NCBI GenBank assembly: GCA_016218685.1
Contig: JACRDD010000004.1
Location: 310,001-374,000, forward strand
DNA length: 64,000 nucleotides
Source of the DNA: Desulfobacterales bacterium
GTDB taxonomy: Bacteria > Desulfobacterota > Desulfobacteria > Desulfobacterales > Desulfosarcinaceae
Direction of reading: 5' to 3'
Within the stretch, counting starts at the first letter, position 1. Each line of letters begins with the position of its first letter. Under the pieces are notes generated by a model. It saw nothing but the letters and a program-made list of their open reading frames with translations, had not been told where the DNA came from and ran no database searches. Positions 1,006 through 18,491 of the stretch are shown piece by piece. Made by a program: the position numbers and the translations under genes.

Positions 1006-4000
1006 ATGATGAAACGCATCTTGATCCCATTCTTGCTAACAATGATTCTGGCCTGCGGCGGCGGTGGCGGTTCCAACGATTTCCAGCAAAACGAAGCCCC
1101 CGGTTTCCAATTGGCGGAAATCACGGAAGGCTACGGCGCCATGGACGATGCCTGGAACAGCATCGACACCAACGAATTTAATGAACGCCTCAAAAGGGCA
1201 GTGGACGAGAAGCGAACCGAAGACGATGACCCGCATGAGAATTTCGAGATTTCGTCTTACGGCTTCGCGGATGTTCTGGAGCATGACGATGAACCCCTGG
1301 CCGAACTGGTCCGTGAGGACCTGCAAAGCATCATCACCCGTCTGGTAGACACCCAAAACCGACATCTCCCCAAAAGGGATGTAGACGCCGTCTACACAGG
1401 CTCCGCTGAAATCTACAATGATGCGTTCTATGCCTTCCTCGATCGGGTCAGCGGCGAAGGATTCGAGGCCCCGCCGGATTACATCACGGGTGCCATAAAA
1501 AAAGTATTGGACTATGTCCTCGATGACAACCTGCCCGATGACGAAAACGGCAATCCCGACAAGGCCTGGCTGAATGAAAAAGTCCAGGAGTTGGTAGATG
1601 ATCTGGTCGAAGACGATCCCGTGGAACGCGATTTCAAGGACGATTTCATCGATCTTTCAAAGTTGATCACCAAGGCCACGATACAAACCGACTATCCGGT
1701 GTGGATCGACGACGCCGGAAATCCGCTCAACTACGAAGAGATCAATCCCAGCCAGCATACCAACCTCGACATGGGCAACGCGGTCAAGGGCAGCCATGAT
1801 GTTGTCATGTGGCTCAATAAACTGATCATGAACCCCGATACCCGCGTGCTTCTGCGCCAAGCCATGCTGGACTTCGATAGTATCCTCAATCCCGATCCGG
1901 AAGCCGGGTTGGTGGAGAAATTGAAAACTTTGGTGGAAAACCTGGAAGCTAACTTCACCACTGGCGGCGAAGTCTACGAAGCCAATCCTATTTACAGCCA
2001 GGATGACAACGCGACCTTCTCCGACAGCGAAATGGGCCAGCTCATTCGGGATAGCTCGCCCATGATCCAGCAGTTATTCACCCGTTCCGACCGGCCTCAA
2101 TCCATGATTGTAACCAAAGAAGGCGAAGGGCCGGTCTACCCCCTGGACTTTATGAATGCCAATCTGCGCAACATCGGCTTCAATCCCGACACCATCGACG
2201 TGGAGCGCTCGATCTACGATTTGATGCGCTATGATCTCTGGGGACGGGACCGCATGACCAATGAAAATGCTTTTCCGGCCTCCCATTTGGAGAGCCTTTT
2301 GTTCCTTACCCAGGTTACGGCTAATTTTGGCTGGCAGGATGGAGGCACGACCGGCGAATACATTACCAATATAGGCAGGCATTCCAGTTCGGTGGAACAC
2401 GGCCATGGCGCCTATGTTGAAGAGCTGACCTTGAATGATGCGCTCTATAGCATGCATATGCTAAAATTGTATGGCACACTTGGCGTTTACCAAATTGGTC
2501 TATATCCAATGAATGGGGATCACCTCTACCGGACCAGATCGGCCTTTGCGCTGTCGGATGTTGATCAATTGCACACTCTGGATAGCGCAGTGTTTAATGA
2601 TGCCACAGAGCAAATCGACTATACCTATCAACTGCCCTCCGCTCAAATTACCGGCGATGACAAGGACTACCGCTTCTTCTATGATCAAAATTATGGTGTG
2701 CTGCAGTTTCTAGCCGGTCCTGGACCGGGAGATCTTGGAACTCCAAATGGCGGCAACCCGAATGGGAATAACCTAACAACCAATCAGTATCGGGCTTATG
2801 CCCCCAATGGGTTGGGCGAAAAGCAGATGGCTGCCTGGACCATGGGGTGGGGGGTGCGGGCTTGCTTTAACGGCGAGGGCCCGTATTACTACGCTGACCC
2901 CAATGCGGCAACCGTTTCCGTCAATGGTCAAGCCTATCGTCAGTACCTGCGGCCAAACGGCAAAACTTACGCACTCGTTTCTCTGGACGGAGCTCAGTAC
3001 CTTTACCCGGCTGAAGACGGCGATGTGGAGGATACGGAAACAGCGCAGATCTCCTTCAATGGCAAGCGCCAGCGGGACAACCGCTACAAAGCTCAATGGC
3101 ACAGTGACTACTACATGGCGCATGTCGCCAGTTATCCGGACAACCAGAATCGCTATTTCACCATCGACAACAGCAGCGGCATCAGTCAATTGGTTCCAGC
3201 CGATGCAACCGCCGAAGTTCCAAACCCACAGGCCGGACGGCTGCTCTACAATGAGTTGGTCGCCGAAACCGATTCTATTCGAGCCTGTGCCTCACCCGAA
3301 GAAGCCTTTTTCAGGAATTTTCAGTGGGTCATGAACGAGAAGAAAATGGTTCTGATAATCCCCTTCTATATGTGGATTGACGAATCCATGAAAGCCATCG
3401 TCTTTCAAGTTCTCGAGTGTCACGGCTGGTCGGGACTGGCCAATGCGCGCAAGTTAAGCGATGCTCATAATCATGTGTGGGCCAAAGCCGGTGGAATGGG
3501 AACTTCCAACATCCCGGGAGATTACCGCTTTGAAATTACCACCGCCGCGGCCGACGCCGATTCTGCGTCCGAGATCAATGATGTTTCGGTGTTTACGGAA
3601 ACCATCGATTGCGGCAACGCTACTCCGGCAATAGTAGGGCACAATTTGCCGGCCCTTTTCCGCTTGGCCTTCCCCCGCAGCATCGAACCCCCGAGCTCTT
3701 TCAATGATGGGGTTCTCGGATCGCGCGAGTTCCAGGTGGGAGATGATAACTGGAACAACCGCAATGCCGTCGTGCCCCTTCTTTTCTCCTTGTTAGCCGG
3801 CTTGCGGGATCATTCACCGGATTACGACCCGAACAACCGGCCGGGCATTAACTCCGGAATGCGCGCTTTCCTGAATCAGGGCTCCGCCTTGATCAAACCG
3901 CTGTTCTATTACAACAGGGCGGGCGCAACGATGCCGGTCCAATCCTACACTCCGCGGGTATATGGTACCAATGCGATCACCGACAGGCACCAGGGCTTCC

Positions 4001-5178
4001 CGTTCCTCAAATCCAGCGCCGATTTCTACACCGGCACCCCGACCACCTGGTACGGCAGCGCGGCTGAACAGCGTTTCTACCAGCCGGCCGTCATGAAAAG
4101 CTTCTTGAATGTTATGATCGACAGCGATGTGACGGATCCCCAGAAGCGCATGGACGGTCTGCTGCCCTTGGTCACCGATACTAGAGCCTTGAGCAACCTT
4201 CTCAAAGTGTTGCTCGATCCATCCGTGGAAGCGCCGCCCCTGGAGCAGATCTTGACGGCCACCAAGTTTACCATGGGAGGAATGACCCGCATCAACGGTT
4301 CTCCAGAATCCGGCAAGGGCATGGTTTTCCCGCAATGGATGTTTGCTACCGGCGTAGAGGAGACCCGAGATCCCTTTGGCGCCTACACAGAGTATGCCGG
4401 CGTCCGGGACGACGACATCTTTCTAGACGACCTGCTGGATCGGATCGTGGGCCGCGATGCCCTGGACGCCGATACCGATGGATACGGCCTGGCCAATTAT
4501 CCCGACAAGCAGGAGCGTTTGGCCCTCGACCCCAATGCGAGCGAAGCTCCCTGGGAAGAGTTCTCGGATAACGTGGATACCCTGGCCGATCTGCTGCACG
4601 AAAGCAGCCCGTACTGCATCTCCACCAATCTACTGGATGCCATAGAACGGGTATTTGCCAGGGAAGAGGCCTACACTTCCGAAGAAATCTACGGCATGCT
4701 CTATGCGACGGGAAAAGTTTTCGGCCGCTATGACAGCCCCACGGAGCGCTGGATCTATCAGGGCGAAGAACAAAATTTCCAAGACATTTATAACATGCTG
4801 GCCACGCGGGTTCCGGTCATGAACAGCGCGGTCATCGAAACCGAGTCGGCGAATCCGGCGGCCCTCGGCGGTCCTCCCGGGCATTACGGTCTCGGCGACC
4901 ACTACTACTCACAATTGGTCCTGATGTCTAAAATGAGCGATCCGGATGGATTGATGGAGTATATCTTCAACACCATAACCTCGCCTCAGAACTGGGATGT
5001 CATTATGCACGACTTGAACCGCTTCATGCACGGGTACGACATCTCCAACGACAACAGTGAATTGTGGTCCACCTTGGCTGAACTGTTGCAGGATATGGGC
5101 AGCGCCGTGGGTCGGAGCAACGAGAGCGATGTGATCGACGCCATCATAGAAGACTACGGGTTCCAGGTGAATCGTTAG
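1006..5178 (+). CDS. Large secreted lipoprotein of unknown function (1390 aa)
   Basis: The protein opens with a lipoprotein signal peptide: two Lys/Arg, a hydrophobic stretch and a lipobox ending LAC at about residue 17, then a Gly run and an acidic mature part. Start 1006 is chosen because AGAGG lies about 10 nt upstream and the signal peptide starts there; the frame stays open further upstream, but that part does not look coding. I recognise no domain. The mature protein is rich in Asp, Asn and Tyr, without obvious repeats or membrane spans. Its position 67 bp before a FadL-type channel suggests an outer-membrane or surface role in handling hydrophobic substrate, which is inference from context only. 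Confidence 0.8.
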   Translation: MMKRILIPFLLTMILACGGGGGSNDFQQNEAPGFQLAEITEGYGAMDDAWNSIDTNEFNERLKRAVDEKRTEDDDPHENFEISSYGFADVLEHDDEPLAELVREDLQSIITRLVDTQNRHLPKRDVDAVYTGSAEIYNDAFYAFLDRVSGEGFEAPPDYITGAIKKVLDYVLDDNLPDDENGNPDKAWLNEKVQELVDDLVEDDPVERDFKDDFIDLSKLITKATIQTDYPVWIDDAGNPLNYEEINPSQHTNLDMGNAVKGSHDVVMWLNKLIMNPDTRVLLRQAMLDFDSILNPDPEAGLVEKLKTLVENLEANFTTGGEVYEANPIYSQDDNATFSDSEMGQLIRDSSPMIQQLFTRSDRPQSMIVTKEGEGPVYPLDFMNANLRNIGFNPDTIDVERSIYDLMRYDLWGRDRMTNENAFPASHLESLLFLTQVTANFGWQDGGTTGEYITNIGRHSSSVEHGHGAYVEELTLNDALYSMHMLKLYGTLGVYQIGLYPMNGDHLYRTRSAFALSDVDQLHTLDSAVFNDATEQIDYTYQLPSAQITGDDKDYRFFYDQNYGVLQFLAGPGPGDLGTPNGGNPNGNNLTTNQYRAYAPNGLGEKQMAAWTMGWGVRACFNGEGPYYYADPNAATVSVNGQAYRQYLRPNGKTYALVSLDGAQYLYPAEDGDVEDTETAQISFNGKRQRDNRYKAQWHSDYYMAHVASYPDNQNRYFTIDNSSGISQLVPADATAEVPNPQAGRLLYNELVAETDSIRACASPEEAFFRNFQWVMNEKKMVLIIPFYMWIDESMKAIVFQVLECHGWSGLANARKLSDAHNHVWAKAGGMGTSNIPGDYRFEITTAAADADSASEINDVSVFTETIDCGNATPAIVGHNLPALFRLAFPRSIEPPSSFNDGVLGSREFQVGDDNWNNRNAVVPLLFSLLAGLRDHSPDYDPNNRPGINSGMRAFLNQGSALIKPLFYYNRAGATMPVQSYTPRVYGTNAITDRHQGFPFLKSSADFYTGTPTTWYGSAAEQRFYQPAVMKSFLNVMIDSDVTDPQKRMDGLLPLVTDTRALSNLLKVLLDPSVEAPPLEQILTATKFTMGGMTRINGSPESGKGMVFPQWMFATGVEETRDPFGAYTEYAGVRDDDIFLDDLLDRIVGRDALDADTDGYGLANYPDKQERLALDPNASEAPWEEFSDNVDTLADLLHESSPYCISTNLLDAIERVFAREEAYTSEEIYGMLYATGKVFGRYDSPTERWIYQGEEQNFQDIYNMLATRVPVMNSAVIETESANPAALGGPPGHYGLGDHYYSQLVLMSKMSDPDGLMEYIFNTITSPQNWDVIMHDLNRFMHGYDISNDNSELWSTLAELLQDMGSAVGRSNESDVIDAIIEDYGFQVNR

Positions 5179-5245: not shown

Positions 5246-6625
5246 ATGAAAAAGCCGATTCGTGTAGTGACCGTGTTGCTCTCATGCCTGCTGTTCGCAA
5301 GTGGCGCCCAGGCTTCTTCATTCGCCGACACATACGGCCTATCGCCTAAGGGGATGAGCATGGGCAATGCCATGACCGCCCACGTGGATGACTGGTCCGC
5401 AATTTACTACAACGTGGCCGGTCTGGGCCGGACGGCGGATAAAAAAGTCAAACCCGATGTCGAGCTTTTCCTGGGCTACCTGAACACCCAGCCCGATACC
5501 CAACTGGACATTCCGCAGCGCTACTACCTCGATGACGATGGCGTGCGGCACGATGTCCCCACCAATGCCGACGAGGACCTGGACTACGGCCAGTTCGTCC
5601 TCGGCCTGGGCCTGGATCTGAACATGTTCTACAAGATGCCCGAAGCCATCTCCTCGGCCCGCTTTGGGTTGACCTTAGGCGTGGGTGACGACCTGTCGGT
5701 TACTAAGGTCAACGATGTGGAGCCCCAGACCCACAACTACTTGAGGTTCGGCCGTGAAGCCCAGCAGACCATGATTATGACAGGCTTGGGATTAGGATTC
5801 ATGGATGATGCCTTCGGCCTGGGTGTGGGCGTTCGTACCTCCTTCGGCGGTGAAGGCGCCGTGCTCCTGGAGGATGTTCAGGTCGGTCAGGACCCCCAAA
5901 CCCCGAGGCAGCAGGCCACGATGGATCTGGAGCTGGAATCGGCATTGCTCGCTGGCCTCTACATCGACATGGGCAAGCTGGTCCAGCCATTGGATGGCTT
6001 AAGCATAGGGGCATCCTATAAACAGGAGTCCTTTTTCGAAGTCGATCCCTTTAATACCGCATCCGAAGTCGAAGTCGGTGGTATCCTGCTCAATTTGAAT
6101 CTTTCGATTTTCGATTACTACCAGCCTGAAACATATACCGGAGGCGTTTCTTACCGCATCGGTGATCGATTCCTGGTGGCCGCTGACGTAGAGTACCAAA
6201 AGTGGTCCGACTATAAAGTCTCCGGGGCTTACCAACAGCTTTATGCCGATATACTGCCGGAGCTAGACGATATCTGGATTCCTAAAATCGGTTTGCAATA
6301 CGACGCCACCGATCGCACCAGTCTTTATCTGGGATATTACTACCAGCCTTCTTTCATTCCGGACGAAGCCGCCAATAGTTGGAATGTCAACTGGCTGGAC
6401 AACGATAAACATGTAGGGTCTATCGGCATTTCCTATAACACAGGCAAATGGGGCGGCCTGCAGAAAGAGATGGTGCTGCACGCTGGCTACCAGTTCCAGT
6501 ATCTGGAAAACCGCACGGTGGACAAGACTGCGCCCGAGGGGGCAACGACCAATGAGATCACCTTGAATCCGGATTACGAGTACGGCGGCACCGTCCATAC
6601 GGTGATGCTGGGCGTGTCCTTCTAA
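5246..6625 (+). CDS. OmpP1/FadL/TodX family outer membrane transport protein
   Basis: This 459-residue protein has a cleavable signal peptide (residues 1-23, ending AQA). The mature N-terminus has the family hallmark: a Ser/Lys-Gly-Met-MGNA segment followed by SAIYYN-AGLG. The rest is amphipathic beta-strand sequence ending in Phe, as in beta-barrel proteins. FadL/TodX channels let long-chain fatty acids, aromatics or other hydrophobic compounds cross the outer membrane. It lies 67 bp after the large lipoprotein gene, probably in one transcript. Its substrate may relate to the acyl-CoA operons downstream. AAGAAAGAGAA precedes the ATG as ribosome binding site. Confidence 0.88.
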   Translation: MKKPIRVVTVLLSCLLFASGAQASSFADTYGLSPKGMSMGNAMTAHVDDWSAIYYNVAGLGRTADKKVKPDVELFLGYLNTQPDTQLDIPQRYYLDDDGVRHDVPTNADEDLDYGQFVLGLGLDLNMFYKMPEAISSARFGLTLGVGDDLSVTKVNDVEPQTHNYLRFGREAQQTMIMTGLGLGFMDDAFGLGVGVRTSFGGEGAVLLEDVQVGQDPQTPRQQATMDLELESALLAGLYIDMGKLVQPLDGLSIGASYKQESFFEVDPFNTASEVEVGGILLNLNLSIFDYYQPETYTGGVSYRIGDRFLVAADVEYQKWSDYKVSGAYQQLYADILPELDDIWIPKIGLQYDATDRTSLYLGYYYQPSFIPDEAANSWNVNWLDNDKHVGSIGISYNTGKWGGLQKEMVLHAGYQFQYLENRTVDKTAPEGATTNEITLNPDYEYGGTVHTVMLGVSF

Positions 6626-6760: not shown

Positions 6761-9700
6761 ATGAAGAAAATTCTCGGGATGTTTTTATGGTTGGCGGTGA
6801 CCATGGCGCTGACCGGCTGTATCAAGGAATTCACACCTAAGGAGAGTGTTATTCAGCTTAAGGCTGGAGAGAGTCAAACCTTCAAAGCGGTATCCGACGA
6901 TCGTACGGCCAAATTGGTTTGGTATCTGGATGGCCGGAAAGTGGCCTACGACAAGAACACCTACACTTACAAAGCCGAAGCGAACAATGGCCAAAAACCA
7001 ATTGTGCATAAGCTTATCGTAAAGGAAGAGGGCGGAAGGTATGTGCAGTACTACAAGATCGCTGGCCTGCCCAATGACTTCATGTCCTCCGTGACCTGGA
7101 CTATCAAGGTTCTGCCGTCCGGTTGCGTGGATGGTGAAACCCGCGAGACAACCTGCGGCATCGGCGCCTGTGCGGCCACCGGGATCGAAACCTGCTCAAG
7201 CGGCGTTTTCGGCGGCAACACCTGCCAGCCCGGTACGCCTTCCGCGGAAATCGCCGGTGACGGCATCGACAATGACTGCGACGGCGAGACCGATGAGACC
7301 ACCTGCGTGCCCACCGCCGAAGTGTGCGATGGCGTGGATAACGATTGCGATAATCTCGTGGATGAAGAGATTCCTGCCGAACCCACCACTTGCGGTATCG
7401 GCGCCTGCGCCCGCGAGGGGCAATACGCTTGCGTCAACGGTGGCATGACCGATAACTGCCAACCGGGCGCGCCCATCGCCGAGGTTGCTGGCGACGGGAT
7501 CGACAATGACTGCGACGGCGAAGTCGATGAGGCGCCGCCCTGCGTTCCGACCGCCGAAGTGTGCGACGGATTGGACAATGACTGCGACGGCGCCGTAGAC
7601 GACGGTATTGCCGCCACGCCCACCACCTGCGGTGTGGGTGCTTGTGCCGGTACCGGTACGTCGAGCTGCGTTAACGGCCAGATCGTCGATTCTTGCCAGG
7701 CCGGGACCCCTGTGGCCGAAGCCTGCGACGGCATCGACAACAACTGCGATGGCAGCGTGGACAACGGCATTGCCGCCACGCCGACCACCTGCGGCATCGG
7801 CGCCTGCGCCAGAGCCGGTCAATTGGCCTGCGTGGGCGGCGCCATGATCAATACCTGTCAGGCCGGCGCTCCCTCGACGGAAACTTGTGATGGCATCGAC
7901 AATAACTGCGACGGCACAGTAGACAATGGGATCGCTTCCCAGGGCACTACATGCGGCCAAGGCGCCTGCGCCAGCACTGGTGAATTGGCTTGCCTTAATG
8001 GCGGCATGAGCGACTCCTGTCAGCCTGGTACCCCGTCGGCGGAAGTAGTTGGCGACGGCGTGGACAATGACTGCGATGGTCAAGTCGATGAAACTGTCTG
8101 TGTGCCGACTGCTGAAGCTTGTGACGGTATCGATAATGATTGCGATGGCCTGGTAGACGACGGCATTGCCTCTGTTCCGACGACCTGCGGCGTGGGCGCT
8201 TGTGCTTCTACGGGTGCTTCAAGCTGTGTCAATGGCCGGATGGTTGACTCCTGCCAGGTCGGCCCGCCTGGAATCGAAGTGTGTGACGGCATCGACAATA
8301 ACTGCGACGGTGCAGTGGATGACGGTATTGCTCCCGCGCCGACCACTTGCGGCTTGGGTGCTTGTGCCAGCACGGGTACCTCGAGCTGCGTTGCCGGCCA
8401 GACGGTCGATTCTTGCGTAGCCGGAACGCCGGTTGCTGAAACTTGCGACGGCATCGATAATAACTGCAACGGTGCAGTGGATGACGGTATTGCTCCCGCG
8501 CCGACCTCTTGCGGCTTGGGTGCTTGTGCCAGCACGGGTACCTCGAGCTGCGTTGCCGGCCAGATGGTCGATTCTTGCGCAGCCGGAACGCCGGTTGCTG
8601 AAGCTTGCAACGGCATCGACGACAACTGCAACGGCAGCGTGGATGATGGCATTGCCCCATCGCCGACCACCTGCGGTTCGGGTGCTTGCACCGGAACTGG
8701 AACATTGAGCTGCGTTGCCGGCGAGATGGTAGACTCCTGCGTAGCCGGTGCCGGATCGGCAGAAATATGCGATGGCATCGATAACAACTGCAATGGCACC
8801 GTGGATGAAAATATTGCCTCTATGCCGACCACCTGCGGTGTGGGTGCCTGCGTCCGCACGGGTGCCTCGAGCTGCGTTGCCGGTCAGATGGTTGATTCTT
8901 GTGTAGCCGGCACACCAGTTGCTGAAGTGTGTGACGGTATCGACAATAACTGCAACGGCACTGCCGACGACGGCATTGCCTCTACCCCGACCACCTGCGG
9001 CGTTGGCGCTTGTACCAGAACTGGTGCATCGAGCTGCGTGGGTGGCCAACTGGTGGACTCTTGCCAGGCCGGTACGCCGGTGGCCGAATCGTGCGACGGC
9101 ATCGACAACAACTGCAACGGCAGCGTGGATGACGGCATTGCCTCCACCCCCACCGTCTGCGGCGTGGGCGCTTGTGCCCGCAATGGCCAACTGGCCTGCA
9201 CCGGCGGAGCAATGGTTGATTCCTGCCAGCCGGGAACACCCGGAGCTGTCGAAATCTGCGATAACACCATCGACGATAACTGCGACGGCTTTACCGATAG
9301 CCAGGATACGGTTGCTTGCGCTGCCGGACCTCCGGCTGTACCCACCAACGTGCAGGCCACGGACTGCGACCCGGTCAACTACGATCCGGCGCACGGCAAC
9401 ATCACCGTGACCTGGAGTGCGTCCCAAGGTGCCGCTTACTACCGAGTCTATCGCGCCATCTTTGCTGAAACCAACGCATACTCCATGGTCGCCGATAATG
9501 TTACCGATACTTCGTTCGAGTACATCCAAACCTGGCAAGCCGATGTCTTCAGCATCATCGGACCGACGCCCGGCCTTTCTCCCACGGCTGACTTCGACCG
9601 CGTTGAAACCGGGGCTCCCTACCCAGAACGGGAGGCTTTCATCAATGCCTTGTCCGACTATCGCGACATGGCCATGCCTTCCCTGTTCAACTTCAAGGCT

Positions 9701-10450
9701 CCGGCGTTCTTCAGGGTGCAGGCTTGCAACGCTGCCGGCCAATGCAGCGACATGAGCACCGCCGATGTAGGCTCGGCCGAGTACATCCATACCGAGCAAT
9801 TCTCCGATCTGGCCCAGCAGGCGATTCCTTCCTGGGGTTATGCTCAGCTCATCTCCTTGGCGGACGCTCCTCCGGGCGCCAACGGCTTGGCCTGGTGCGG
9901 CATCGATCTGTGCGGATCGGGCGGCGGCATTGCCATGGGCCGGGTTGCGGCTACTACCAGAGTGAATATCGATGTGGCCTACAATGAATACACGGAGGCC
10001 TTGGCTATCGCTCCGGGCTCATACTTCCAGGCTTCCGGACGGCTCGGCGGAAGAATGGCGGCCGCGGATGCCAACAACGGCAAGTTCCTGCTCTCCGGCA
10101 CCTTCACCATTAGGATGCCCGGTCGTCCGGACATCACTCTCGCGATGTATGCCCGTATCGGCTTCACCGCCACGGATGGAACACGCTTCAGCGACGGCGT
10201 GGCCGCAATTACCTACAAAGGGTTGACCTACCAGTTCACGCTGCCCATCCAGCCCGTGGATGGCATCAGCGGTCATGCGGCCCAGCCGCCGCAACCGGTG
10301 GTACCGGCCGTTACCATCCCGCCCACCGGGTGGACCGCGTCCACTGCAGCGGCCCCGACGCCATTGGTTCCCGAGGATATGGATCCGGAGTGTCTGCGGG
10401 TATGGCCCGACTATGTACTAGAAGAATGCCCGGTAAGCGTAGGACCTTAA
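6761..10450 (+). CDS. Lipoprotein with 15 MopE-type metal-binding motifs and a C-terminal Fn3-like module
   Basis: This 1229-residue protein has a lipoprotein signal peptide (lipobox LTGC near residue 20; Ile at +2 fits outer-membrane sorting). Residues about 20-120 form a domain shared with the three following paralogues ([12 protein letters not shown], then a W-Y-LDGR segment). Residues about 125-855 hold 15 copies of the Asp/Asn-rich motif of the CDGIDNNCDG type, spaced by Cys-rich units with a TTCG-GAC core. This is the pattern of the MopE/'putative metal-binding motif' family. Residues from about 862 on form a fibronectin-III-like domain plus a Gly-rich domain with a [10 protein letters not shown] stretch. 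Metal binding is expected from the family; the metal is not known. GTAGGAGGGGG precedes the ATG. Confidence 0.85.
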   Translation: MKKILGMFLWLAVTMALTGCIKEFTPKESVIQLKAGESQTFKAVSDDRTAKLVWYLDGRKVAYDKNTYTYKAEANNGQKPIVHKLIVKEEGGRYVQYYKIAGLPNDFMSSVTWTIKVLPSGCVDGETRETTCGIGACAATGIETCSSGVFGGNTCQPGTPSAEIAGDGIDNDCDGETDETTCVPTAEVCDGVDNDCDNLVDEEIPAEPTTCGIGACAREGQYACVNGGMTDNCQPGAPIAEVAGDGIDNDCDGEVDEAPPCVPTAEVCDGLDNDCDGAVDDGIAATPTTCGVGACAGTGTSSCVNGQIVDSCQAGTPVAEACDGIDNNCDGSVDNGIAATPTTCGIGACARAGQLACVGGAMINTCQAGAPSTETCDGIDNNCDGTVDNGIASQGTTCGQGACASTGELACLNGGMSDSCQPGTPSAEVVGDGVDNDCDGQVDETVCVPTAEACDGIDNDCDGLVDDGIASVPTTCGVGACASTGASSCVNGRMVDSCQVGPPGIEVCDGIDNNCDGAVDDGIAPAPTTCGLGACASTGTSSCVAGQTVDSCVAGTPVAETCDGIDNNCNGAVDDGIAPAPTSCGLGACASTGTSSCVAGQMVDSCAAGTPVAEACNGIDDNCNGSVDDGIAPSPTTCGSGACTGTGTLSCVAGEMVDSCVAGAGSAEICDGIDNNCNGTVDENIASMPTTCGVGACVRTGASSCVAGQMVDSCVAGTPVAEVCDGIDNNCNGTADDGIASTPTTCGVGACTRTGASSCVGGQLVDSCQAGTPVAESCDGIDNNCNGSVDDGIASTPTVCGVGACARNGQLACTGGAMVDSCQPGTPGAVEICDNTIDDNCDGFTDSQDTVACAAGPPAVPTNVQATDCDPVNYDPAHGNITVTWSASQGAAYYRVYRAIFAETNAYSMVADNVTDTSFEYIQTWQADVFSIIGPTPGLSPTADFDRVETGAPYPEREAFINALSDYRDMAMPSLFNFKAPAFFRVQACNAAGQCSDMSTADVGSAEYIHTEQFSDLAQQAIPSWGYAQLISLADAPPGANGLAWCGIDLCGSGGGIAMGRVAATTRVNIDVAYNEYTEALAIAPGSYFQASGRLGGRMAAADANNGKFLLSGTFTIRMPGRPDITLAMYARIGFTATDGTRFSDGVAAITYKGLTYQFTLPIQPVDGISGHAAQPPQPVVPAVTIPPTGWTASTAAAPTPLVPEDMDPECLRVWPDYVLEECPVSVGP
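9347..10450 (+). repeat. 1104-bp direct repeat, copy A (3' end of lipoprotein gene)
   Basis: This stretch matches 13108-14211 over the same length of 1104 bp, with no gap and few base differences. It encodes the C-terminal 367 residues (Fn3-like plus terminal domain). The near identity, compared with the clearly diverged ends of the other two paralogues, points to recent duplication or gene conversion. Confidence 0.9.
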
Positions 10451-10468
10451 CCGGGTCTTAGGGTTAAC

Positions 10469-10542
10469 GATCCGCCGCCGATGCAGGTGGCGGATCGAAG
10501 ATCAGCAACATGATCCAAGCCCCCTGCATCAGGGGGGCTTGG
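10469..10542 (+). terminator. Two successive hairpins after the first MopE-type lipoprotein
   Basis: The first hairpin is GATCCGCC (10469-10476) with GGCGGATC (10489-10496). The second is CCAAGCCCCC with GGGGGCTTGG (10515-10542). No T tract follows. The same hairpin types recur at about the same distance after the stop codons of the paralogues, so they may be terminators or mRNA 3'-end stabilisers. Confidence 0.55.
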
Positions 10543-10565
10543 GTAAACTCAAAAGGGAGGAAGAA

Positions 10566-12161
10566 ATGAAAGTCTTATTTAAGCCATTGCTCGTGATTGG
10601 ACTGGCACTAACTTTGTTCGGCTGTATTACCAAGTACTCGCCGCTACTAACCAATCTTACCATGAAAAATGGCGAGTCCAAGACCTTTACGGCCACCAGC
10701 GATAACCCCAAGGCCAAACTGGAGTGGACCCTGGATGGGAAAAGGGTGGCCTGTGGGGTGGGAGAGTTCAAGTTTGTTGCCCAGAACACCACCTCCAAGC
10801 CCATCGTCAGAAAACTGACCGTAAAGGAAGTGGGCATGGGAATGCTCAGACCAGGGGATAGCGTGACCTGGACGATCACCATAGAGCCAGGAACAGCGCC
10901 CACGCCGACTCCGACGCCTCCGCCGACGGCGACTCCGACGCCTCCGCCGACGGCGACCCCGACACCTCCTCCGACGGCGACTCCGACGCCTCCGCCGACG
11001 GCAACCCCGACGCCTCCGCCGACGGCGACTCCGACGCCTCCGCCGACGGCAACCCCGACTCCCCCTCCGACGGCTACACCGACCCCGCCGCCGACCATCC
11101 CGCCAGTTCCCACCGGTGTATCTGCTACGGATAAAACATCGGGTCTGACCCATGTACAAATCACCTGGAGCGCCAGCCAAGGTGCTACTTCCTATAATCT
11201 TCAGAGGGCTGTTTACAACACTTCGTCCACCTTCGAAACCGTGGGCCAGAACATCACAGCTACTTCCTTCAATTATGTCCAGACCTGGGCTGACGATGTG
11301 CTCGCAATTATCGGGCCGACCCCGGGAATCGCAGGAAATGCGAATGATGCGGCCAAGGTCGATTTCATCGAGGCCCTAAACGCTTACCGCGACGCCGCGC
11401 TGCCGGTTCTGTTTAATTTCAAGGCGCCGGCCTATTTCAGGGTCCAGGCCTGTAATGCTGCGGGTTGCAGCGCTTACAGCACCGCGGATTTCGGCCAGGC
11501 CGAGTACATTCACACCGCCCAATTCTCCGAAGTGGCTCAGCAAGTGATTCCCACCTGGGGATACGCTCAGCTTATCGCTCTGGCGGATGCCCCCTCCGGC
11601 GCCCAGGGTCTTAGCTGGTGCGGCATCGATCTGTGCGGTTCGGGTGGCGGCATCGCCATGGGCCGGGTTCAGTTAGCCGGCACGCGGGTGAGTGTCCGAG
11701 TGGTCTATGAGAACTACACCGAAGTGATGGCCGGCGTCGCCGGCGCCTATGCCGATGTGGACGGAGAACTTGGCGGCAATCATGCGCTTTTGGCCGCCCA
11801 ACGCGGCGAATTCTGGTTGACCGGCGCCTTTACTATCGATCTGTCTGGGGAGACTGCCGTAGACTTGAGCATGTACGCGCATATTTCTGGCAGCGCGACC
11901 CCCAACGATGGTTATGCCAACATCACCTACAATGGTGCCACCTACCAGTTCACGCTGCCTATCGCGCCCATCGACGGCATCAGTGGACATCCGGCTGCAC
12001 CCCCCACGGCCATCGTTCCGGCCAGAACCGACACCGGCAGTTGGACTGCTTCCACCGGTGCCTATCCGGTGCCTTTGAGTCAGGAGGCACCCGATCCCGA
12101 GTGTAACCGCAACTGGACGGAGTACGTCATCAGCGAGTGTCCGGCCAGTGTTGCGCCTTAA
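10566..12161 (+). CDS. Lipoprotein with Thr-Pro linker and Fn3-like C-terminal module
   Basis: The protein has 531 residues. A frame starts 27 nt earlier, but AGGGAGG lies just before the ATG at 10566, where the signal peptide also begins (lipobox LFGC). The N-terminal domain (about 20-115) matches those of the neighbouring paralogues: GESKTFTATSD, then W-LDGKRVA. Residues about 115-180 are a low-complexity TPTPPPTA linker. The C-terminal about 350 residues are an Fn3-like domain and the terminal [10 protein letters not shown]-containing domain. The linker stands where the paralogues carry MopE repeats. Function is unknown; a surface-exposed, spacer-held binding domain is inferred. Confidence 0.83.
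   Translation: MKVLFKPLLVIGLALTLFGCITKYSPLLTNLTMKNGESKTFTATSDNPKAKLEWTLDGKRVACGVGEFKFVAQNTTSKPIVRKLTVKEVGMGMLRPGDSVTWTITIEPGTAPTPTPTPPPTATPTPPPTATPTPPPTATPTPPPTATPTPPPTATPTPPPTATPTPPPTATPTPPPTIPPVPTGVSATDKTSGLTHVQITWSASQGATSYNLQRAVYNTSSTFETVGQNITATSFNYVQTWADDVLAIIGPTPGIAGNANDAAKVDFIEALNAYRDAALPVLFNFKAPAYFRVQACNAAGCSAYSTADFGQAEYIHTAQFSEVAQQVIPTWGYAQLIALADAPSGAQGLSWCGIDLCGSGGGIAMGRVQLAGTRVSVRVVYENYTEVMAGVAGAYADVDGELGGNHALLAAQRGEFWLTGAFTIDLSGETAVDLSMYAHISGSATPNDGYANITYNGATYQFTLPIAPIDGISGHPAAPPTAIVPARTDTGSWTASTGAYPVPLSQEAPDPECNRNWTEYVISECPASVAP
10904..11096 (+). repeat. 24-bp tandem repeats encoding a Thr-Pro linker
   Basis: About eight units of a 24-bp sequence encode TPTPPPTA. The units are nearly identical, so copy number could change by slippage and alter the spacer length between the two folded domains. 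Confidence 0.85.
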
Positions 12162-12174
12162 TGGCAGGGCATTT

Positions 12175-12247
12175 GATCCGCTGAGGCGGCGGATCGACGC
12201 ATAAACGCATAACCAGGCCAAGCTCCCTGATTTCAGGGGGCTTGGCC
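12175..12247 (+). terminator. Two hairpins after the second lipoprotein paralogue
   Basis: GATCCGC (12175-12181) pairs with GCGGATC (12189-12195). GGCCAAGC followed by TCCCTGA pairs with TCAGGGGGCTTGGCC (12216-12247, one mismatch). The order and motifs match the 10469-10542 pair. No T tract follows. Confidence 0.5.
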
Positions 12248-12414
12248 ATCTCTCCGAAAAAAGCATCCGAGAGTCGGGATGCTCGAGATCCAAAGAAATA
12301 TCTCCCTAATCGCAGATTCCCCAAAGAGCATGCAAACATCTGCATGGGGCAACTTGTTTTCATGCTCTTTGTGGAATACGCGGCAAGAACCTGGAGTAAA
12401 GAAAGGGGGCAGCA

Positions 12415-14211
12415 ATGAGGTCAATATTTAGGAGCGTTGTCTTGCTGGCACTGGCGCTGATATTATTCGGCTGTATTTCGGATTTTTCGCCCAGTCAAAA
12501 AACCGTTAAACTCAAACAAGGGGAAAGTCAAACCTTCAAAGCCGTCAGTGACAATCCGAAAGCCCGATTGGACTGGTATCTGGACGGCAAGAAGGTGGCA
12601 GAAGGAAAAGGTAGCTTTACTTTTACCGCGGAACAATTGTCTGGGCATAAACCCGCGCTCCATTTGCTGGCTGCTGTAGAGATCAGCAAAGCGACAGCAA
12701 AGATTTTGAAGAATGAAGCGTTGCAGCAAAAAGTCTCCGATGCGGTAAAGTGGAAGATCATCGTTAAGGCACACGGCCCGAAACCCACTCCGACGCCGAA
12801 GCCGACCCCGACGCCAGCACCGACTGCGACCCCTACGCCAGCCCCGACTGCGACCCCTACGCCAGTACCGACCGCGACCCCTACGCCAGCACCGACCGCG
12901 ACCCCGACCCCAGCCCCGACTGCGACCCCGACGCCGGCACCGACCGCGACGCCGACCCCAGCCCCGACTGCGACCCCGACGCCTGTACCGACCGCGACGC
13001 CAACACCGACAGCAACGCCGACCCCGACCCCGACAGCAACACCGACTGCTACACCGACGCCGACAGCGACCCCGACACCAGTGCCTACAATTCCACCCGT
13101 GCCCGCTAACGTGCAGGCCACGGACTGCGACCCGGTCAACTACGATCCGGCGCATGGCAACATCACCGTGACCTGGAGTGCGTCCCAAGGTGCCGCATAC
13201 TACCGAGTCTATCGCGCCATCTTTGCTGAAACCAACGCGTACTCCATGGTCGCCGATAATGTTACCGATACTTCGTTCGAGTACATCCAAACTTGGCAAG
13301 CCGATGTCTTCAGCATCATCGGACCGACGCCCGGCCTTTCGCCCACGGCTGACTTCGACCGCGTTGAAACCGGGGCTCCCTACCCAGAGCGGGAGGCTTT
13401 CATCAATGCCTTGTCCGACTATCGCGACATGGCCATGCCTGCCCTGTTCAACTTCAAGGCCCCGGCGTTCTTCAGGGTGCAGGCTTGCAACGCTGCCGGC
13501 CAATGCAGCGACATGAGCACCGCCGATGCCGGCTCGGCCGAGTACATCCATACCGAGCAATTCTCCGATCTGGCCCAGCAGGCGATTCCTTCCTGGGGTT
13601 ATGCCCAGCTCATCTCCTTGGCGGATGCTCCTCCGGGCGCCAACGGCTTGGCCTGGTGCGGCATCGACCTGTGCGGATCGGGCGGCGGCATTGCCATGGG
13701 CCGGGTTGCGGCTACTACCAGAGTGAATATCGATGTGGCCTACGATCAATACACGGAAGCTTTGGATACCGTTCCGGGCTCGTACTTTGAGGCTTCTGGA
13801 CGGCTTGGTGGAAGAATGGCGGCTGCTGATGCCAATAATGGCAAGTTCCTGTTGTCCGGCACCTTCACTATTAACATGCCCGGTCGACCGACCATCGATC
13901 TCGCGATGTATGCCCGTATCGGCTTCACCGCTACAGATGGAACACGCTTTAGCGACGGCGTGGCCGCAATTACTTACAAAGGGTTGACCTACCAGTTCAC
14001 TTTGCCGATCCAGCCCATGGATGGCATCAGCGGTCATCCGGCCCAGCCGCCGCAACCGGTGGTACCGGCCGTTACCATCCCGCCCACCGGCTGGACCGCG
14101 TCCACTGCAGCTGTCCCGACGCCATTGGTTCCCGAGGATATGGATCCGGAGTGCCTGCGGGTATGGCCCGACTATGTTTTAGAAGAATGCCCGGGTTCTA
14201 TAGCGCCTTAG
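12415..14211 (+). CDS. Lipoprotein with long Thr-Pro linker and Fn3-like C-terminal module
   Basis: This 598-residue paralogue has a signal peptide with lipobox LFGC and the shared N-terminal domain ([12 protein letters not shown], then [10 protein letters not shown]), here with an extra helical stretch around residues 85-120. Residues about 122-227 are a TPTPAPTA-type linker, longer than in the preceding paralogue. The C-terminal 367 residues are nearly identical to those of the 1229-residue MopE-type protein, which shows module swapping within the family. GAAAGGGGG lies before the ATG. Function is unknown. The 250-bp upstream gap holds the hairpins of the previous gene and presumably this gene's promoter. 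Confidence 0.83.
12781..13095 (+). repeat. Low-complexity tandem repeats encoding TPTPAPTA linker
   Basis: The sequence is built from 24-bp units reading TPTPAPTA or TPTPVPTA, degrading to 6-12-bp TPTPTA units toward the 3' end. It is a likely hot spot for length change by slipped-strand pairing. Confidence 0.85.
13108..14211 (+). repeat. 1104-bp direct repeat, copy B
   Basis: This stretch matches 9347-10450 without gaps. Differences at protein level are a handful of substitutions, for example in the segment after the [10 protein letters not shown] motif and at the last four residues. Confidence 0.9.
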
Positions 14212-14267
14212 CCTTTTTGGGTCGAGGCGTTGACGGGATAGTGGCTCAACAACCAAGCATACGGCAT

Positions 14268-14301
14268 GGCCAAGCCCCCGAGTTTCATCGGGGGCTTGGC
14301 C
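14268..14301 (+). terminator. GC-rich hairpin after the third lipoprotein paralogue
   Basis: GGCCAAGCCCCCGA pairs with TCGGGGGCTTGGCC (14-bp perfect stem, short loop), about 57 nt after the stop codon. It is the same CCAAGCCCCC hairpin as at 10515 and 12216. No T tract follows. Confidence 0.55.
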
Positions 14302-14363
14302 CGAACAGCTCCGCGAAGATTTAGCGTATTTTGGCATAGGAGAGGGAAGAAAGGGAGGCAGAC

Positions 14364-17300
14364 ATGGCTCGCAAATTGTTGTTACTTCTCGTTATCGCTT
14401 TCACGTTGGTCTTCTCGGGTTGTATCACCAGTTACACTCCCAAAGAGAGTGTGGTGGAACTGGCATCGCGTGGGACGCAAGTCTTCACGGCTGTCAGCGA
14501 CGATGCAACCGCGCGACTGGTATGGTATCTGGACGGTAGAAGAGTCGCCTACGGACAGACCCGATATACTTTCAATGCCGAACAGAACATCGGGACAACG
14601 ATCATCACCCATCAATTGATCGTGCGCGAAGAGGGCGGCCGGAATGCTCTTTACTACAAGTATTCAGGGATGCCCGCGCCTTCGGTAACTTGGACCATCC
14701 GGGTCATGCCGCCATCCCTGCCGGCGCCGTGCTATCTGGACGAGGATGGTGATGGATATGGCGATGTCGCCAAAATGGTGCAATCGAACACTCCGCCCGC
14801 AAACTGCCTCAAAGACAAAACCGACTGTAACGACGACGATGAGGCCGTGCATCCCGGCGCCGCCGAAGTGTGCGGGGACGCCATCGACCAGGATTGCAGC
14901 GGGGCGGACCTGACCTGCCCGGTCGATCCCAACGATGTGGACAACGATGGCGACGGCGTGACCGAAAATCAAGGGGATTGCAACGACGCCAGCCCCACCG
15001 TGCATCCCGGTGCCGCCGAAGTGTGCGGGGACGCCATCGACCAGGATTGCAACGGTGCGGACTTGATCTGCCCGCCCAACCCGAATGATGTGGACAACGA
15101 CGGCGACGGCGTGACCGAAAACCAGGGCGACTGCAACGATGGCAATGCAGCCATCCTGCCGGGCGCCAACGATATCTGTGGAGACGGCATCGACCAGGAT
15201 TGCAGCGGCGCGGATACGATCTGCCCACCCGGCCCCCTGGATACCGACAACGACGGCGACGGGCTTACCGAAAACCAAGGCGACTGCAACGATGCCAACC
15301 CCGCCATTTTTGCCGGCGCCACCGATATATGCGGTGATCAGATCGACCAGGATTGCAGTGGCGCGGACGCCGTCTGCCCGCCCGGTCCCAGCGATACCGA
15401 CGACGACGGCGATAGTTATACGGAGAACGAAGGCGACTGCAACGACGGTAACGCCAGCATCTTCCCCGGTGCCAACGATGTGTGCGGTGATGGTGTGGAC
15501 CAGGACTGCAGCGGCGGCGATGAAATCTGCCCGCCAGACCCCAACAACAGCGACGATGACAACGATGGATTCACGGAGAATCAGGGCGATTGCAATGACA
15601 GCAATCCCGCGGTGCGCCCCGGCGCCGCCGAAAGCTGCAACAACCTCGATGACAACTGCAATGGGCAGACGGACGAAGGCGTTCGGGTATCCTTCTACCG
15701 GGATTCGGATGGCGACACCTACGGCAGCGCCGCCGCCGCCGTTCAGGCGTGCGTGGCGCCGGCCGGGTATGTCGCCGACCATAGCGATTGCGACGATGCC
15801 GTGGCCACGGTGCATCCCAATGCCACGGAAATCTGCAACAACATCGACGAGGATTGCGACGGCCAAACCGATGAGGGCGTGTTGCTGACCTTCTACCAGG
15901 ATGGCGATCGCGACACCTTCGGTAATGCTGCGATGAGCACCCAGGCCTGCGCGGCCCCCAACGGCTATGTCACCAGCAGCAACGACTGCGATGATACGCG
16001 GGCTGCGGTTCATCCCGAAGCCACGGAAACCTGCAATGGGCTGGACGACAACTGTAACGCCCAGACCGACGAGGGCGTGCTGCTGACCTTCTACCGGGAT
16101 GCGGACAACGATGCCTACGGCAACGCCGCCGCAACCACCCAGGCCTGCACGCCACCGGCCGGCTACGTTACCAGCAGCAACGACTGCAACGATACGGTGG
16201 CATCGATCCATCCGGGCGCGAGCGAAATCTGCAACACGTTTGACGACAACTGTAACGGCTCGGTGGATGAAGGGGTGTTGCTGACCTTCTACCGGGATGC
16301 GGACAACGATACTTACGGCAACGCCGCGGCCACCGTCCAGGCCTGCGCGGCACCGGCCGGTTACGCCACCAGCAGCAGCGACTGCAACGATACCCTGGCT
16401 GCCGTTCACCCAGGCGCCAGCGAAACGTGCAACGAGGTGGATGACAACTGCAACGGCATGTCGGATGAACCTTACCTGACCTTCTACCAGGATGCCGATA
16501 GCGACAGCCACGGCCTTATCTCGGCGACGACCAGGGCCTGCGCGGCGCCGGGTGGTTACGTCAGCAGCAACGACGATTGCAACGACACGTTGGCCAGCGT
16601 CTATCCCGGTGCGAACGAAACATGCAACGGAATTGACGAAAACTGCAACGGCGCGGTGGATGAGGGCGTGTTGATCACCTTCTACCGGGATGCCGACAAC
16701 GATACCTACGGCAACGCCACCGCCACCACCCAGGCCTGCACGGTGCCGGCCGGTTATGTCGCTACCAGCAGCGACTGCAACGATACGGTGGCCTCGATCC
16801 ATCCGGGTGCGAGCGAGACCTGCAACACAGCGGACGACAACTGCAACGGCTCGGTGGACGAGGGCGTGTTGGTGACCTTCTACCAGGATGCCGACAGCGA
16901 CAGCTACGGGAACGCCACCGCCACTACCCAGGCCTGCACGGTACCGGCCGGTTACGTTGCCACCAGCAACGACTGCAACGACACGGTGGCTTCGATCCAT
17001 CCGGGCGCGAGCGAGACCTGCAACGCGGCGGACGACAACTGCAACGGTTCGGTGGATGAAGGGGTGTTGCTCACCTTCTACCGGGATGCCGACCGCGACA
17101 CATACGGTAACGCGGGCATTACCACCCAAGCTTGCGCAGTGCCCAGTGGCTACACCACCAACAGCACCGATTGCAACGACGGCTTGGCATCCGTCCATCC
17201 CGGCGCCGCGGAAATCTGCAATACGCTGGACGAAGATTGCGATGGCACAGTGGACGAGGGTGTCCTGCTGACCTTCTATGCCGATCAGGACAGCGATGGT

Positions 17301-18491
17301 CACGGTAATTCGGCCAGTGTCAGACAGGCATGCAGCGCCCCCGCGAACTACGTGGCCAGCGCCGACGACTGCAATGATGGCAACGCGGCGATCAACCCCG
17401 GCGCCGCGGAGACCTGTAACCAGGCCGACGACAACTGCAATGGTTCCACCGATGAAGGCGACGTCTGTGTGGTAGCCATTCCCGAGGCACCGCTTAACGT
17501 GGTGGCGACCGATATTACCTCCGGCCGCACGGATATCCAGGTAACCTGGACCGCAAGCCAGGGCGCCGCCTTCTACAGGGTCTACCGTGCCGTCTATGCG
17601 CAGAACGGGAATTACATACCGGTCGGCGACAACATCACCGAAACCAGCTTCGTCTATACCCAGGACTTTGCGGCCGATGTCCTCGACCAGGTTGGTCCTT
17701 TCCCCCAGGGAGATGATTACCTGCTCAATCTGGAGGCCTACCGTCAACAGATAGTGCCCTACCTGTTTAATTTCAAGGCGCCGGCCTTTTTCAGAGTGGA
17801 GGCTTGCAATGCAGATGGGGACTGTAGCGATCTAAGCGCCGCCGATGCCGGCCAGGCGGAGTTCATTCATACGGCCGCTTATTCCGAAGTGGCCCAGATG
17901 ATTACTCCGCTGTGGTTCCATCCCATCCTGGTAACCTTCGGCAGTCTCCCCTCGGGCGCGAATGCATTGAGCTGGTGCGGAATCGACTTCTGCGGCCCGG
18001 CCGGCGGAATGTACATGGGGCGTTTGAATGGTACCATGTATAGTCCGCAGTTGGATGTGTACTATGAAAACTACACCGATGGATGGATGAATCATTCGGC
18101 GGCTCGCTTCTGGGTCGACGGATACCTCGGCGGTCTGCAAAGGGGTATAGCCACTAGTCAAACCATAAGGATCTCAGGAAACTTCGATGCCACCTTCGGT
18201 GCCATCCAGGCGAGATTGTTCTCCTATTTTTCGATTCCATTGTCATCTGGTACGAACGATGGCTATGTCACGGTCACTTACAAAGGCGCTGCATACCAAT
18301 TCGCATTGCCCATTAATGCGGAAACGGCTGAGATTCGGCTGATGGAGCAGCTCGCACCAGCCAGGAACGACGCGGACTATACGGTGAGTAGAAACACTAC
18401 CGCCTATCCGGTGCCTTTTGCCGAGGAGCCGCTCACCGATTGCCCGCTCTGGTCGGAGGACCTGGCAGTGCAATGCAACCGGATCCCTTAG
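14364..18491 (+). CDS. Lipoprotein with 15 MopE/thrombospondin-3-like metal-binding repeats and Fn3-like end
   Basis: This 1375-residue paralogue has a signal peptide with lipobox FSGC and the shared N-terminal domain (residues about 20-110). Residues about 122-1036 hold two repeat classes. Five units combine a DNDGDG-type calcium-like loop, GDCND and CGDxIDQDCSGAD. Ten longer units of about 70 residues combine LTFYRDAD-DTYGNA, a Cys-Ala-Pro-Gly-Tyr segment, DCND and CN--DDNCNG-VDEGV. The C-terminal about 340 residues are the Fn3-like domain and a diverged terminal domain (GIDFCGPAGG). The Asp density indicates a divalent-metal-binding, rigid surface protein; this is inference from the repeat family. 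GGGAGG precedes the ATG. Confidence 0.85.
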   Translation: MARKLLLLLVIAFTLVFSGCITSYTPKESVVELASRGTQVFTAVSDDATARLVWYLDGRRVAYGQTRYTFNAEQNIGTTIITHQLIVREEGGRNALYYKYSGMPAPSVTWTIRVMPPSLPAPCYLDEDGDGYGDVAKMVQSNTPPANCLKDKTDCNDDDEAVHPGAAEVCGDAIDQDCSGADLTCPVDPNDVDNDGDGVTENQGDCNDASPTVHPGAAEVCGDAIDQDCNGADLICPPNPNDVDNDGDGVTENQGDCNDGNAAILPGANDICGDGIDQDCSGADTICPPGPLDTDNDGDGLTENQGDCNDANPAIFAGATDICGDQIDQDCSGADAVCPPGPSDTDDDGDSYTENEGDCNDGNASIFPGANDVCGDGVDQDCSGGDEICPPDPNNSDDDNDGFTENQGDCNDSNPAVRPGAAESCNNLDDNCNGQTDEGVRVSFYRDSDGDTYGSAAAAVQACVAPAGYVADHSDCDDAVATVHPNATEICNNIDEDCDGQTDEGVLLTFYQDGDRDTFGNAAMSTQACAAPNGYVTSSNDCDDTRAAVHPEATETCNGLDDNCNAQTDEGVLLTFYRDADNDAYGNAAATTQACTPPAGYVTSSNDCNDTVASIHPGASEICNTFDDNCNGSVDEGVLLTFYRDADNDTYGNAAATVQACAAPAGYATSSSDCNDTLAAVHPGASETCNEVDDNCNGMSDEPYLTFYQDADSDSHGLISATTRACAAPGGYVSSNDDCNDTLASVYPGANETCNGIDENCNGAVDEGVLITFYRDADNDTYGNATATTQACTVPAGYVATSSDCNDTVASIHPGASETCNTADDNCNGSVDEGVLVTFYQDADSDSYGNATATTQACTVPAGYVATSNDCNDTVASIHPGASETCNAADDNCNGSVDEGVLLTFYRDADRDTYGNAGITTQACAVPSGYTTNSTDCNDGLASVHPGAAEICNTLDEDCDGTVDEGVLLTFYADQDSDGHGNSASVRQACSAPANYVASADDCNDGNAAINPGAAETCNQADDNCNGSTDEGDVCVVAIPEAPLNVVATDITSGRTDIQVTWTASQGAAFYRVYRAVYAQNGNYIPVGDNITETSFVYTQDFAADVLDQVGPFPQGDDYLLNLEAYRQQIVPYLFNFKAPAFFRVEACNADGDCSDLSAADAGQAEFIHTAAYSEVAQMITPLWFHPILVTFGSLPSGANALSWCGIDFCGPAGGMYMGRLNGTMYSPQLDVYYENYTDGWMNHSAARFWVDGYLGGLQRGIATSQTIRISGNFDATFGAIQARLFSYFSIPLSSGTNDGYVTVTYKGAAYQFALPINAETAEIRLMEQLAPARNDADYTVSRNTTAYPVPFAEEPLTDCPLWSEDLAVQCNRIP

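Follow-up and report, generated by a model that had tools for sequence, protein, structure and literature searches.

Four tandem genes of a Desulfobacterales bacterium encoding predicted lipoproteins with a common C-terminal module and exchangeable middles

The window analysed here is a stretch of 64,000 nucleotides from a Desulfobacterales bacterium of the family Desulfosarcinaceae (assembly GCA_016218685.1, contig JACRDD010000004.1, positions 310,001 to 374,000 of the forward strand). It carries four tandem genes on the + strand, A to D, each encoding a signal peptide and an N-terminal domain (N-domain), a slot of variable content and a common C-terminal module (C-module, or head). With about equal trust and doubt, we propose that the products are lipoproteins of the cell envelope in which a single conserved head is carried by linkers that differ greatly in length and stiffness. 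An earlier note on this DNA had described four tandem genes with a shared lipoprotein N-terminal domain and an Fn3-like plus terminal domain, the middles being 15 MopE-type (PF11617) stretches in A and in D and Thr-Pro spacers in B and C; the identities of both end modules, a Pfam scan and the repeat analysis bear this description out. The parts of the four genes lie in the window as follows.

6761..10450, + strand: gene A, 1229 residues, with signal peptide, N-domain, PF11617 array, Fn3 and terminal domain
6818..7111, + strand: N-domain of A, beginning with the Cys of the lipobox, similar to Ig/PKD domains by pattern only
7112..9337, + strand: slot of A, 742 residues, 15 PF11617 stretches, 54-residue units
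9338..10447, + strand: C-module of A, terminal domain starting at 9770
10566..12161, + strand: gene B, 531 residues including the ATG at 10566
10884..11105, + strand: slot of B, 74 residues, Thr-Pro array, 24-nucleotide unit x 8.3
11106..12158, + strand: C-module of B, terminal domain starting at 11493
12415..14211, + strand: gene C, 598 residues
12766..13098, + strand: slot of C, 111 residues, Thr-Pro array, 24-nucleotide unit x 11.2
13099..14208, + strand: C-module of C, terminal domain starting at 13531
14364..18491, + strand: gene D, 1375 residues
14706..17486, + strand: slot of D, 927 residues, 15 PF11617 stretches, 51- and 66-residue units
17487..18488, + strand: C-module of D, terminal domain starting at 17850; closest to the stand-alone PF11617-type member of genome G007 and not to A to C

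Common ends and an exchangeable slot

Genomes are denoted below by G numbers and proteins by P numbers: G000 is the genome of the window (64.6% complete), G007, G006 and G003 belong to the same genus, and G723 belongs to another family of the phylum. The N-domain of A to D comprises about 95 residues, starts with Cys and follows the pattern C-I-x-x-x-[ST]-P ... F ... W-x-L-D-G ... W-x-I; its identity to the N-domain of D is 59% in A, 38% in B and 37% in C, and it has no Pfam or NCBIfam family above the cut-off. When compared by eye with the lipobox consensus [LVI][ASTVI][GAS]C, the lipobox of A is strict and those of B, C and D are one residue off, and strict lipoboxes are found in all five of the G007 proteins P0012 to P0016.

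The C-module, which ends all four proteins, is about 335 to 370 residues long and consists of an Fn3 domain with an insertion and a terminal domain of about 165 residues; its identity to that of A is 60% in B, 95% in C and 41% in D. The Pfam fn3 model has no match in A to D (P0001 to P0004). The best PDB match of the C-module profile is the Fn3-like 3mpc (E 1.3e-4), and residues 1-139 of the structural model align to the Fn3 domain 7jgu with Z 12.7 and a root-mean-square deviation of 1.7 over 88 aligned residues; judged by this model and by the profile match, the first part of the C-module is an Fn3 fold. The terminal domain has an invariant W-x-G-x-D-x-C in nine aligned sequences and no Pfam or NCBIfam match, the best PDB profile E-value in this part being 2. 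With the nine sequences, AlphaFold2 predicts an antiparallel beta-meander preceded by a helix, the confidence being low (mean predicted local distance difference test score, pLDDT, 57); with this low-confidence model of the terminal domain alone, Foldseek found nothing below E 0.5, and the best Z of VIA-align was 6.5, which is at noise level. This lack of a fold match is no evidence of a new fold. The earlier note had named as its own counter-evidence that the end domains might turn out to be a common, already characterised family; we discarded this candidate, both domains being without a Pfam or NCBIfam match above the cut-off. Below the cut-off, Pfam at E<=1 gave P0001 to P0004 matches to BiPBP_C, I-set, LPD26 and DUF4851; the weak matches of this kind to I-set, BiPBP_C and an internalin model were set aside.

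In the Pfam scan of A to D, which listed matches to E 1, PF11617 was found in 15 stretches of A (E 4.3e-72, 238 bits for the whole protein) and 15 stretches of D (E 6.9e-150, 487 bits, the cut-off being 27), and at that threshold B and C had no match. Two kinds of array can be told apart, with 54-residue units (162 nucleotides) in A and 51- plus 66-residue units (153 plus 198 nucleotides) in D, and units match each other at 73-79%. The Thr-Pro arrays are 24-nucleotide tandem repeats, with 8.3 copies at 87% in B and 11.2 copies at 76% in C, and tandem DNA repeats are present in all four slots of the window. Further contents occur in relatives, namely a carbohydrate-binding module of family 2 (CBM2; PF00553, cut-off 24) together with Thr-Pro in P0008 (98.1 bits, E 4.1e-28) and P0018 (101.9 bits, E 2.7e-29), PASTA repeats in all four G723 proteins with a C-module, and no linker at all in P0012, where the slot is 11 residues long. 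The slots of the 14 members with both borders measure 11, 74, 111, 119, 264, 275, 317-321 (four members), 742, 886, 927 and 1068 residues. The earlier note had argued that the two repeat types occupy the same slot and may serve the same mechanical purpose: the exchangeable slot stands, and the role as a mechanical spacer fits slots that hold CBM2 with Thr-Pro, PASTA or no linker in relatives.

Heads, bases and the nature of the arrays

From the first Fn3 residues to 17 nucleotides before the stop codon, A (9338-10433) and C (13099-14194) are 94.7% identical at the DNA level over 1096 nucleotides without a gap; the slots of the two genes, in contrast, are unrelated, and similarity between their N-domains is limited to a stretch of 80 nucleotides at 75%. 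The C-module tree groups A, B and C (support 99/99), three G007 members with each other (100/100), and D with the stand-alone G007 copy (100/99), whereas the N-domain tree pairs B with the first Thr-Pro member of G007 (92/92) and C with the second (96/88) and joins the four PF11617 types (88/80), the supports with fewer rows being 89/89, 94/89 and 66/71, respectively. In approximately unbiased (AU) tests, cross-species pairing is rejected by the C-module data for B (p 1.4e-43), for C (7e-37) and for A (7e-58), and grouping within a genome by the N-domain data (0.0016 for A+B+C, 0.0003 for the three G007 members and 0.008 for A+C), these p values being somewhat favourable because the groups were picked after seeing the trees. 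The two trees and the AU tests together indicate that the heads of A to C, and likewise those of the three G007 members, have been homogenised within their genome and that the bases and slots keep their identity. The cause would most simply be gene conversion. Synonymous divergence is 0.18 between A and C, 1.55 between A and B and 1.93 between B and C; the ratio of nonsynonymous to synonymous divergence (dN/dS) of the C-module is 0.17 for A and C and 0.13-0.45 over 11 pairs, several of them with saturated dS, and by these ratios the C-module is under purifying selection.

The earlier note had also considered that the PF11617 arrays capture metal. Of the 742 residues of the array of A, 737 were counted and include 80 Cys and no His or Trp, and the array of D contains 12 His and 0 Trp (Trp counted over 920 of 927 residues). 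The PF11617 motif aligns to chain residues 5-45 of MopE* (2vov) and is the only part of the array of D that matches MopE*. According to the portions of the MopE and CorA papers drawn on here, the first 46 residues of MopE* are not seen in the crystal and its Cu(I) site is formed by Kyn130, His132 and His203 (PMC3423442), CorA has the same Cu(I) site and a structural Ca2+ (PMC3912023), and the site requires a Trp-derived kynurenine and two His in both proteins (PMC3423442, PMC3912023). The array of A, with neither His nor Trp, and that of D, without Trp, do not contain this set of residues. Metal capture in the copper sense is thus not supported, the motif lying outside the Cu(I) site of MopE, and we rejected copper capture as the leading reading on the position of the motif and the His and Trp counts. 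The array of A has 9 strict Dx[DN]xDG loops and that of D has 12, compared to means of 0.21 and 0.61 and a maximum of 4 in 1000 shuffles, and two G007 arrays have 7 and 8; since shuffling breaks the repeats, these counts show enrichment and not independent events or origins. In the part of the source used here, Dx[DN]xDG is described as binding Ca2+ in many structural contexts, mostly extracellular (PMC3123361). The arrays are probably better read as disulfide-rich rods stiffened by calcium.

PF11617 matches were found in 13 of 31 relatives, the genome of the window included, and in none of 14 control genomes. The motif is widely used in other proteins, since 11 of these 13 relatives lack a full C-module. 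At locus L145 of genome G040, PF11617 repeats precede a CAP-like domain recognised by eye, and here the motif again lies between domains.

Relatives and neighbouring genes

A fifth member, P0008, lies at the end of the same contig (contig C22, locus L013, from 4342 to the contig end) and contains an N-domain, CBM2, Thr-Pro and the start of Fn3. The C-terminus of P0008 is probably encoded by a fragment with which contig C43 begins, judging from 82% identity between this fragment and the last part of P0018, the complete CBM2-type protein. The CBM2 domains of P0008 and P0018 have four Trp positions in common, and each is the sole CBM2 match found in its genome, G000 (64.6% complete) and G007, respectively. 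G007 has six C-modules and seven N-domains, its members being a PF11617 type beside FadL, Thr-Pro types, a type with no linker (11 residues), a stand-alone PF11617 type of 1525 residues and the complete CBM2 type of 731 residues; contig breaks in this genome lie within Thr-Pro arrays. In G006 the cluster seems to have been lost: it keeps a stop-containing remnant of the end of the head (locus L051, about 6866-7117), and the gene behind this remnant shares 87% identity with the Fe-S protein gene next after D in the window. Each of four G723 proteins combines a similar N-domain with PASTA repeats, Fn3 and a terminal domain that can still be recognised: in hhalign it matches that of the family with 95.5% and E 1.6e-8, in an alignment of 171 columns that includes about 30 from the end of Fn3, both profiles being of low diversity.

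Several side observations were made in these genomes. At loci L116, L117 and L118 of G723, runs of lipoprotein genes encode an N-domain with PKD repeats, PASTA with Fn3 and head, or PKD with RCC1 repeats, and at L116 the series of three kinds is present two times in the same order; a PADLOC match to PD-T4-6 on one G723 protein covers the PASTA region and was set aside. The genome of the window encodes, at locus L014:2240-3964, a spacer protein with a sugar-binding module, in the order Fn3, Thr-Pro spacer and CBM96-type region. In G003, loci L149, L152 and L153 encode long proteins in which CBM2 is combined with Asp-Pro linkers; by eye they resemble cellulases, and they may be a source of CBM2 in the genus.

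The full C-module is rare. Matches with E<=0.001 occur in 6 of 97 relatives, in at least 26 of 389 genomes of the order and in at least 9 of 395 genomes of the phylum; these samples overlap, and the last two counts are lower bounds with at most five candidates scored per genome. Outside G000, G007, the G006 remnant and G723, the matches listed cover the Fn3 part only (to profile position 83), and in the class of G723 the single match among 42 genomes is G723 itself, whose sequences were in the profile. N-domain matches occur in 13 of 247 phylum genomes, including that of the window. Among the 13 N-domain loci from the other 12 genomes, a reading frame was obtained in 12 (not in L125), being the longest frame in the middle of the locus and not always the matched one. 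By eye, their readable parts resemble generic Ig/PKD-type stretches, so the N-domain is no clean family marker outside G000, G007, G723, G044 and G076; in G044, G076 and G723, proteins of RCC1 or propeller-like type also carry similar N-domains.

Two genes lie upstream of the cluster.

5246..6625, + strand: gene of a FadL/Toluene_X-type outer-membrane protein (PF03349), directly upstream of A
1006..5178, + strand: gene of a large predicted lipoprotein without a Pfam or NCBIfam match, a recurrent neighbour of the FadL gene

The product of the first gene scores 40.1 bits with PF03349, above the gathering score of 29.7, and shows weak similarity to the AupA model (67.3 bits, cut-off 840). The order large lipoprotein, FadL, PF11617 type, Thr-Pro type is common to two species. 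In the order, at least 12 of 194 genomes have the large lipoprotein (E<=1e-10) and at least 11 have the FadL orthologue (E<=1e-20), these being lower bounds with at most 3 and 8 candidates, respectively, scored per genome. Both are present in 11 genomes; the two genes are adjacent in 8 of these, lie apart on one contig in one, and are on different contigs in two. As a side observation, the large lipoprotein and the FadL-type gene form a recurrent pair across several families of the order. Within the genus, the large lipoprotein occurs in 2 of 11 genomes, G000 and G007, the same two that have the full C-module. At four large lipoprotein/FadL loci in other genera there is no C-module within about 1.5 kb downstream, and tblastn gave no FadL match in the 5.6-20 kb around the CBM2-type members (G000, G007), the standalone PF11617-type member (G007) and four G723 members. 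The FadL neighbourhood to which the earlier note had drawn attention is seen in two species and is not an obligatory one, with the FadL pair standing without the lipoproteins in the 1.5 kb read at four loci and several members having no FadL match in the 5.6-20 kb around them. The association is real in one lineage, where it may be functional, and does not define the family.

In the intergenic regions, hairpins spotted by eye at 10515-10542 (after A) and 14270-14299 (after C) have the same stem, CCAAGCCCCC / GGGGGCTTGG, one of them with an extra G, and neither is followed by a T run. Scans for promoter and terminator sites gave fewer sites than shuffled sequences, 2 compared to 6.3 and 8 compared to 11.5, respectively.

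Possible roles and known systems

In the arrangement that we propose, a predicted lipid anchor, an Ig-like base, an exchangeable spacer and a common head would make up a display lipoprotein. Once exported to the outside of the outer membrane, the PF11617 arrays would behave as disulfide-rich, calcium-stiffened rods and the Thr-Pro arrays as flexible or extended tethers, gene conversion would keep the heads of A to C alike, and the head would bind an extracellular target, the same for all members, with the set spanning several distances from the membrane. A narrower version, which we put forward tentatively and with more doubt than trust, is that the set as a whole provides graded distances and stiffnesses: gene conversion would keep one head, the slot would alternate among structurally unrelated spacers (rods stiffened by calcium and disulfides, tethers of Thr-Pro, rods of PASTA repeats, a module that binds cellulose, or no spacer at all), and the head would represent a binding domain of a new, extracellular kind.

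A number of observations weigh against this proposal. The head of D is not homogenised with those of A to C, the N-domain of A groups with the PF11617 types but has no clear single counterpart there, and the N-domain tree has moderate support values that drop when fewer rows are used; homogenisation could also be a passive effect of tandem repetition. Three of the four lipoboxes in the window are one residue off the consensus, and by eye a canonical lipobox is absent in the CBM2 branch (P0008, P0018). The terminal domain has no confident fold in two AlphaFold2 models (mean pLDDT 57). Given the rarity of the full C-module, the argument draws on two related genomes and one distant one. With regard to calcium rods, MopE* lacking its first 24 residues is, in the portion of the paper considered, no longer retained on a Cu(II) column, and these 24 residues carry one Dx[DN]xDG-type loop; the authors name His26 as a possible Cu(II) ligand (PMC3423442), and 9 of the 12 His of D stand in the corresponding HP[GNE]A place, so that weak Cu(II) binding by the arrays is conceivable.

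These last observations, and the name of the PF11617 family, are also what speaks for the idea that the arrays capture copper or another metal for uptake. We consider it very improbable, since the Cu(I) site of MopE and CorA lies elsewhere, A has neither His nor Trp and D has no Trp (PMC3423442, PMC3912023, as far as the portions cited go), and 11 of the 13 relatives with PF11617 have it without a full C-module. Another possibility is that recombination-prone repeats are shuffled neutrally, the resulting combinations having no coordinated role. The tandem DNA repeats in all four slots of the window, the patchy distribution and the G006 remnant would be expected in such a case; however, C-module dN/dS of 0.13-0.45 over 11 pairs and the presence of PF11617 and Thr-Pro types in the same places beside FadL in two species are at odds with it, and we regard it as quite improbable.

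Two further explanations are unlikely in our view, and to a similar degree, although each deserves more weight than the preceding two. The lipoproteins may be accessory to the FadL-type channel, their heads on varied tethers gathering a hydrophobic substrate and passing it on to the channel, as would agree with the gene order shared by two species and with the large lipoprotein occurring, among the 11 genus genomes, in just the two with a full C-module (G006, with its head remnant, lacks it). Physical linkage alone would account for such joint loss in the genus, the pair is adjacent in 8 of 11 genomes and four such loci read through about 1.5 kb downstream without a C-module, and no FadL match was obtained by tblastn around the CBM2 types, the stand-alone PF11617 type and the G723 members. 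Structural neighbours of the terminal domain, found at low confidence, include beta-barrels for small ligands, of the FABP and avidin types, but their Z of about 4 is at noise level. Alternatively, the heads may bind cell-wall or matrix sugars, the CBM2 member revealing the theme of a polysaccharide-binding set. CBM2 with the same four Trp positions in the slots of P0008 and P0018, as the only CBM2 match in each genome, points in this direction, as do the two best solved Fn3 matches by sequence, 3mpc from C. thermocellum and 5g56 from the cellulosomal CtXyl5A, and the Fn3-Thr-Pro-CBM96 protein of the same genome. Yet CBM2 is confined to one branch, the one without a canonical lipobox, the head has no match to a CBM family in Pfam, and by structure two FN3tt domains outrank 5g56 and 3mpc, Fn3 similarity being uninformative on the ligand.

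If the proposal of one head displayed on exchangeable linkers is true, these genes represent a natural swap of unrelated stalk modules under a constant head, and the contribution of the stalk (length, stiffness, calcium response, sugar binding) can be tested with natural paralogues that have the same head. It would also mean that long PF11617 arrays should not be taken as copper capture on the family name alone, and it would point to two uncatalogued domains, the N-domain and the terminal domain. A search of open-licence papers for this layout or for PF11617 arrays returned no paper on such a family. Stalk-and-head proteins are already known; the exchange of unrelated stalks, including CBM2, PASTA and none, under a homogenised head was not found in this literature.

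Among characterised proteins, MopE and CorA have the PF11617 motif in common with A and D, as a single copy at residues 5-45 of MopE*, whereas here the motif forms a 15-fold array without the residues of the Cu(I) site. The gene upstream of A belongs to the Toluene_X family, as FadL/AupA transporters do, and has weak similarity to AupA, but unlike in the AupA-AupB system its partner gene encodes a large lipoprotein of another kind. Fibrillar adhesins are long proteins built of repeats, with a stalk and a domain at its end (PMC9210967). The proteins described here likewise have a stalk and a head; they differ in that no known adhesive domain is found in A to D by Pfam at E<=1, a binding module being present only in the CBM2 paralogues. 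A further parallel is with Periscope Proteins, where, according to the sections cited, a repetitive stalk that varies in length likewise holds a head away from the cell (PMC9704523), the stalk being made of highly identical tandem repeat domains (PMC9704523, PMC9210967). In contrast, the PF11617 units agree at 73-79%, the Thr-Pro repeats, at 87% and 76%, are not a folded domain, and the predicted anchor is a lipid and not a sortase signal or a barrel. In Periscope Proteins, as described in those sections, one type of stalk varies within a protein in the number of its repeats (PMC9704523), and such variation is found inside a species, of which one genome each is compared here; the paralogues described here carry unrelated stalks or none in one slot.

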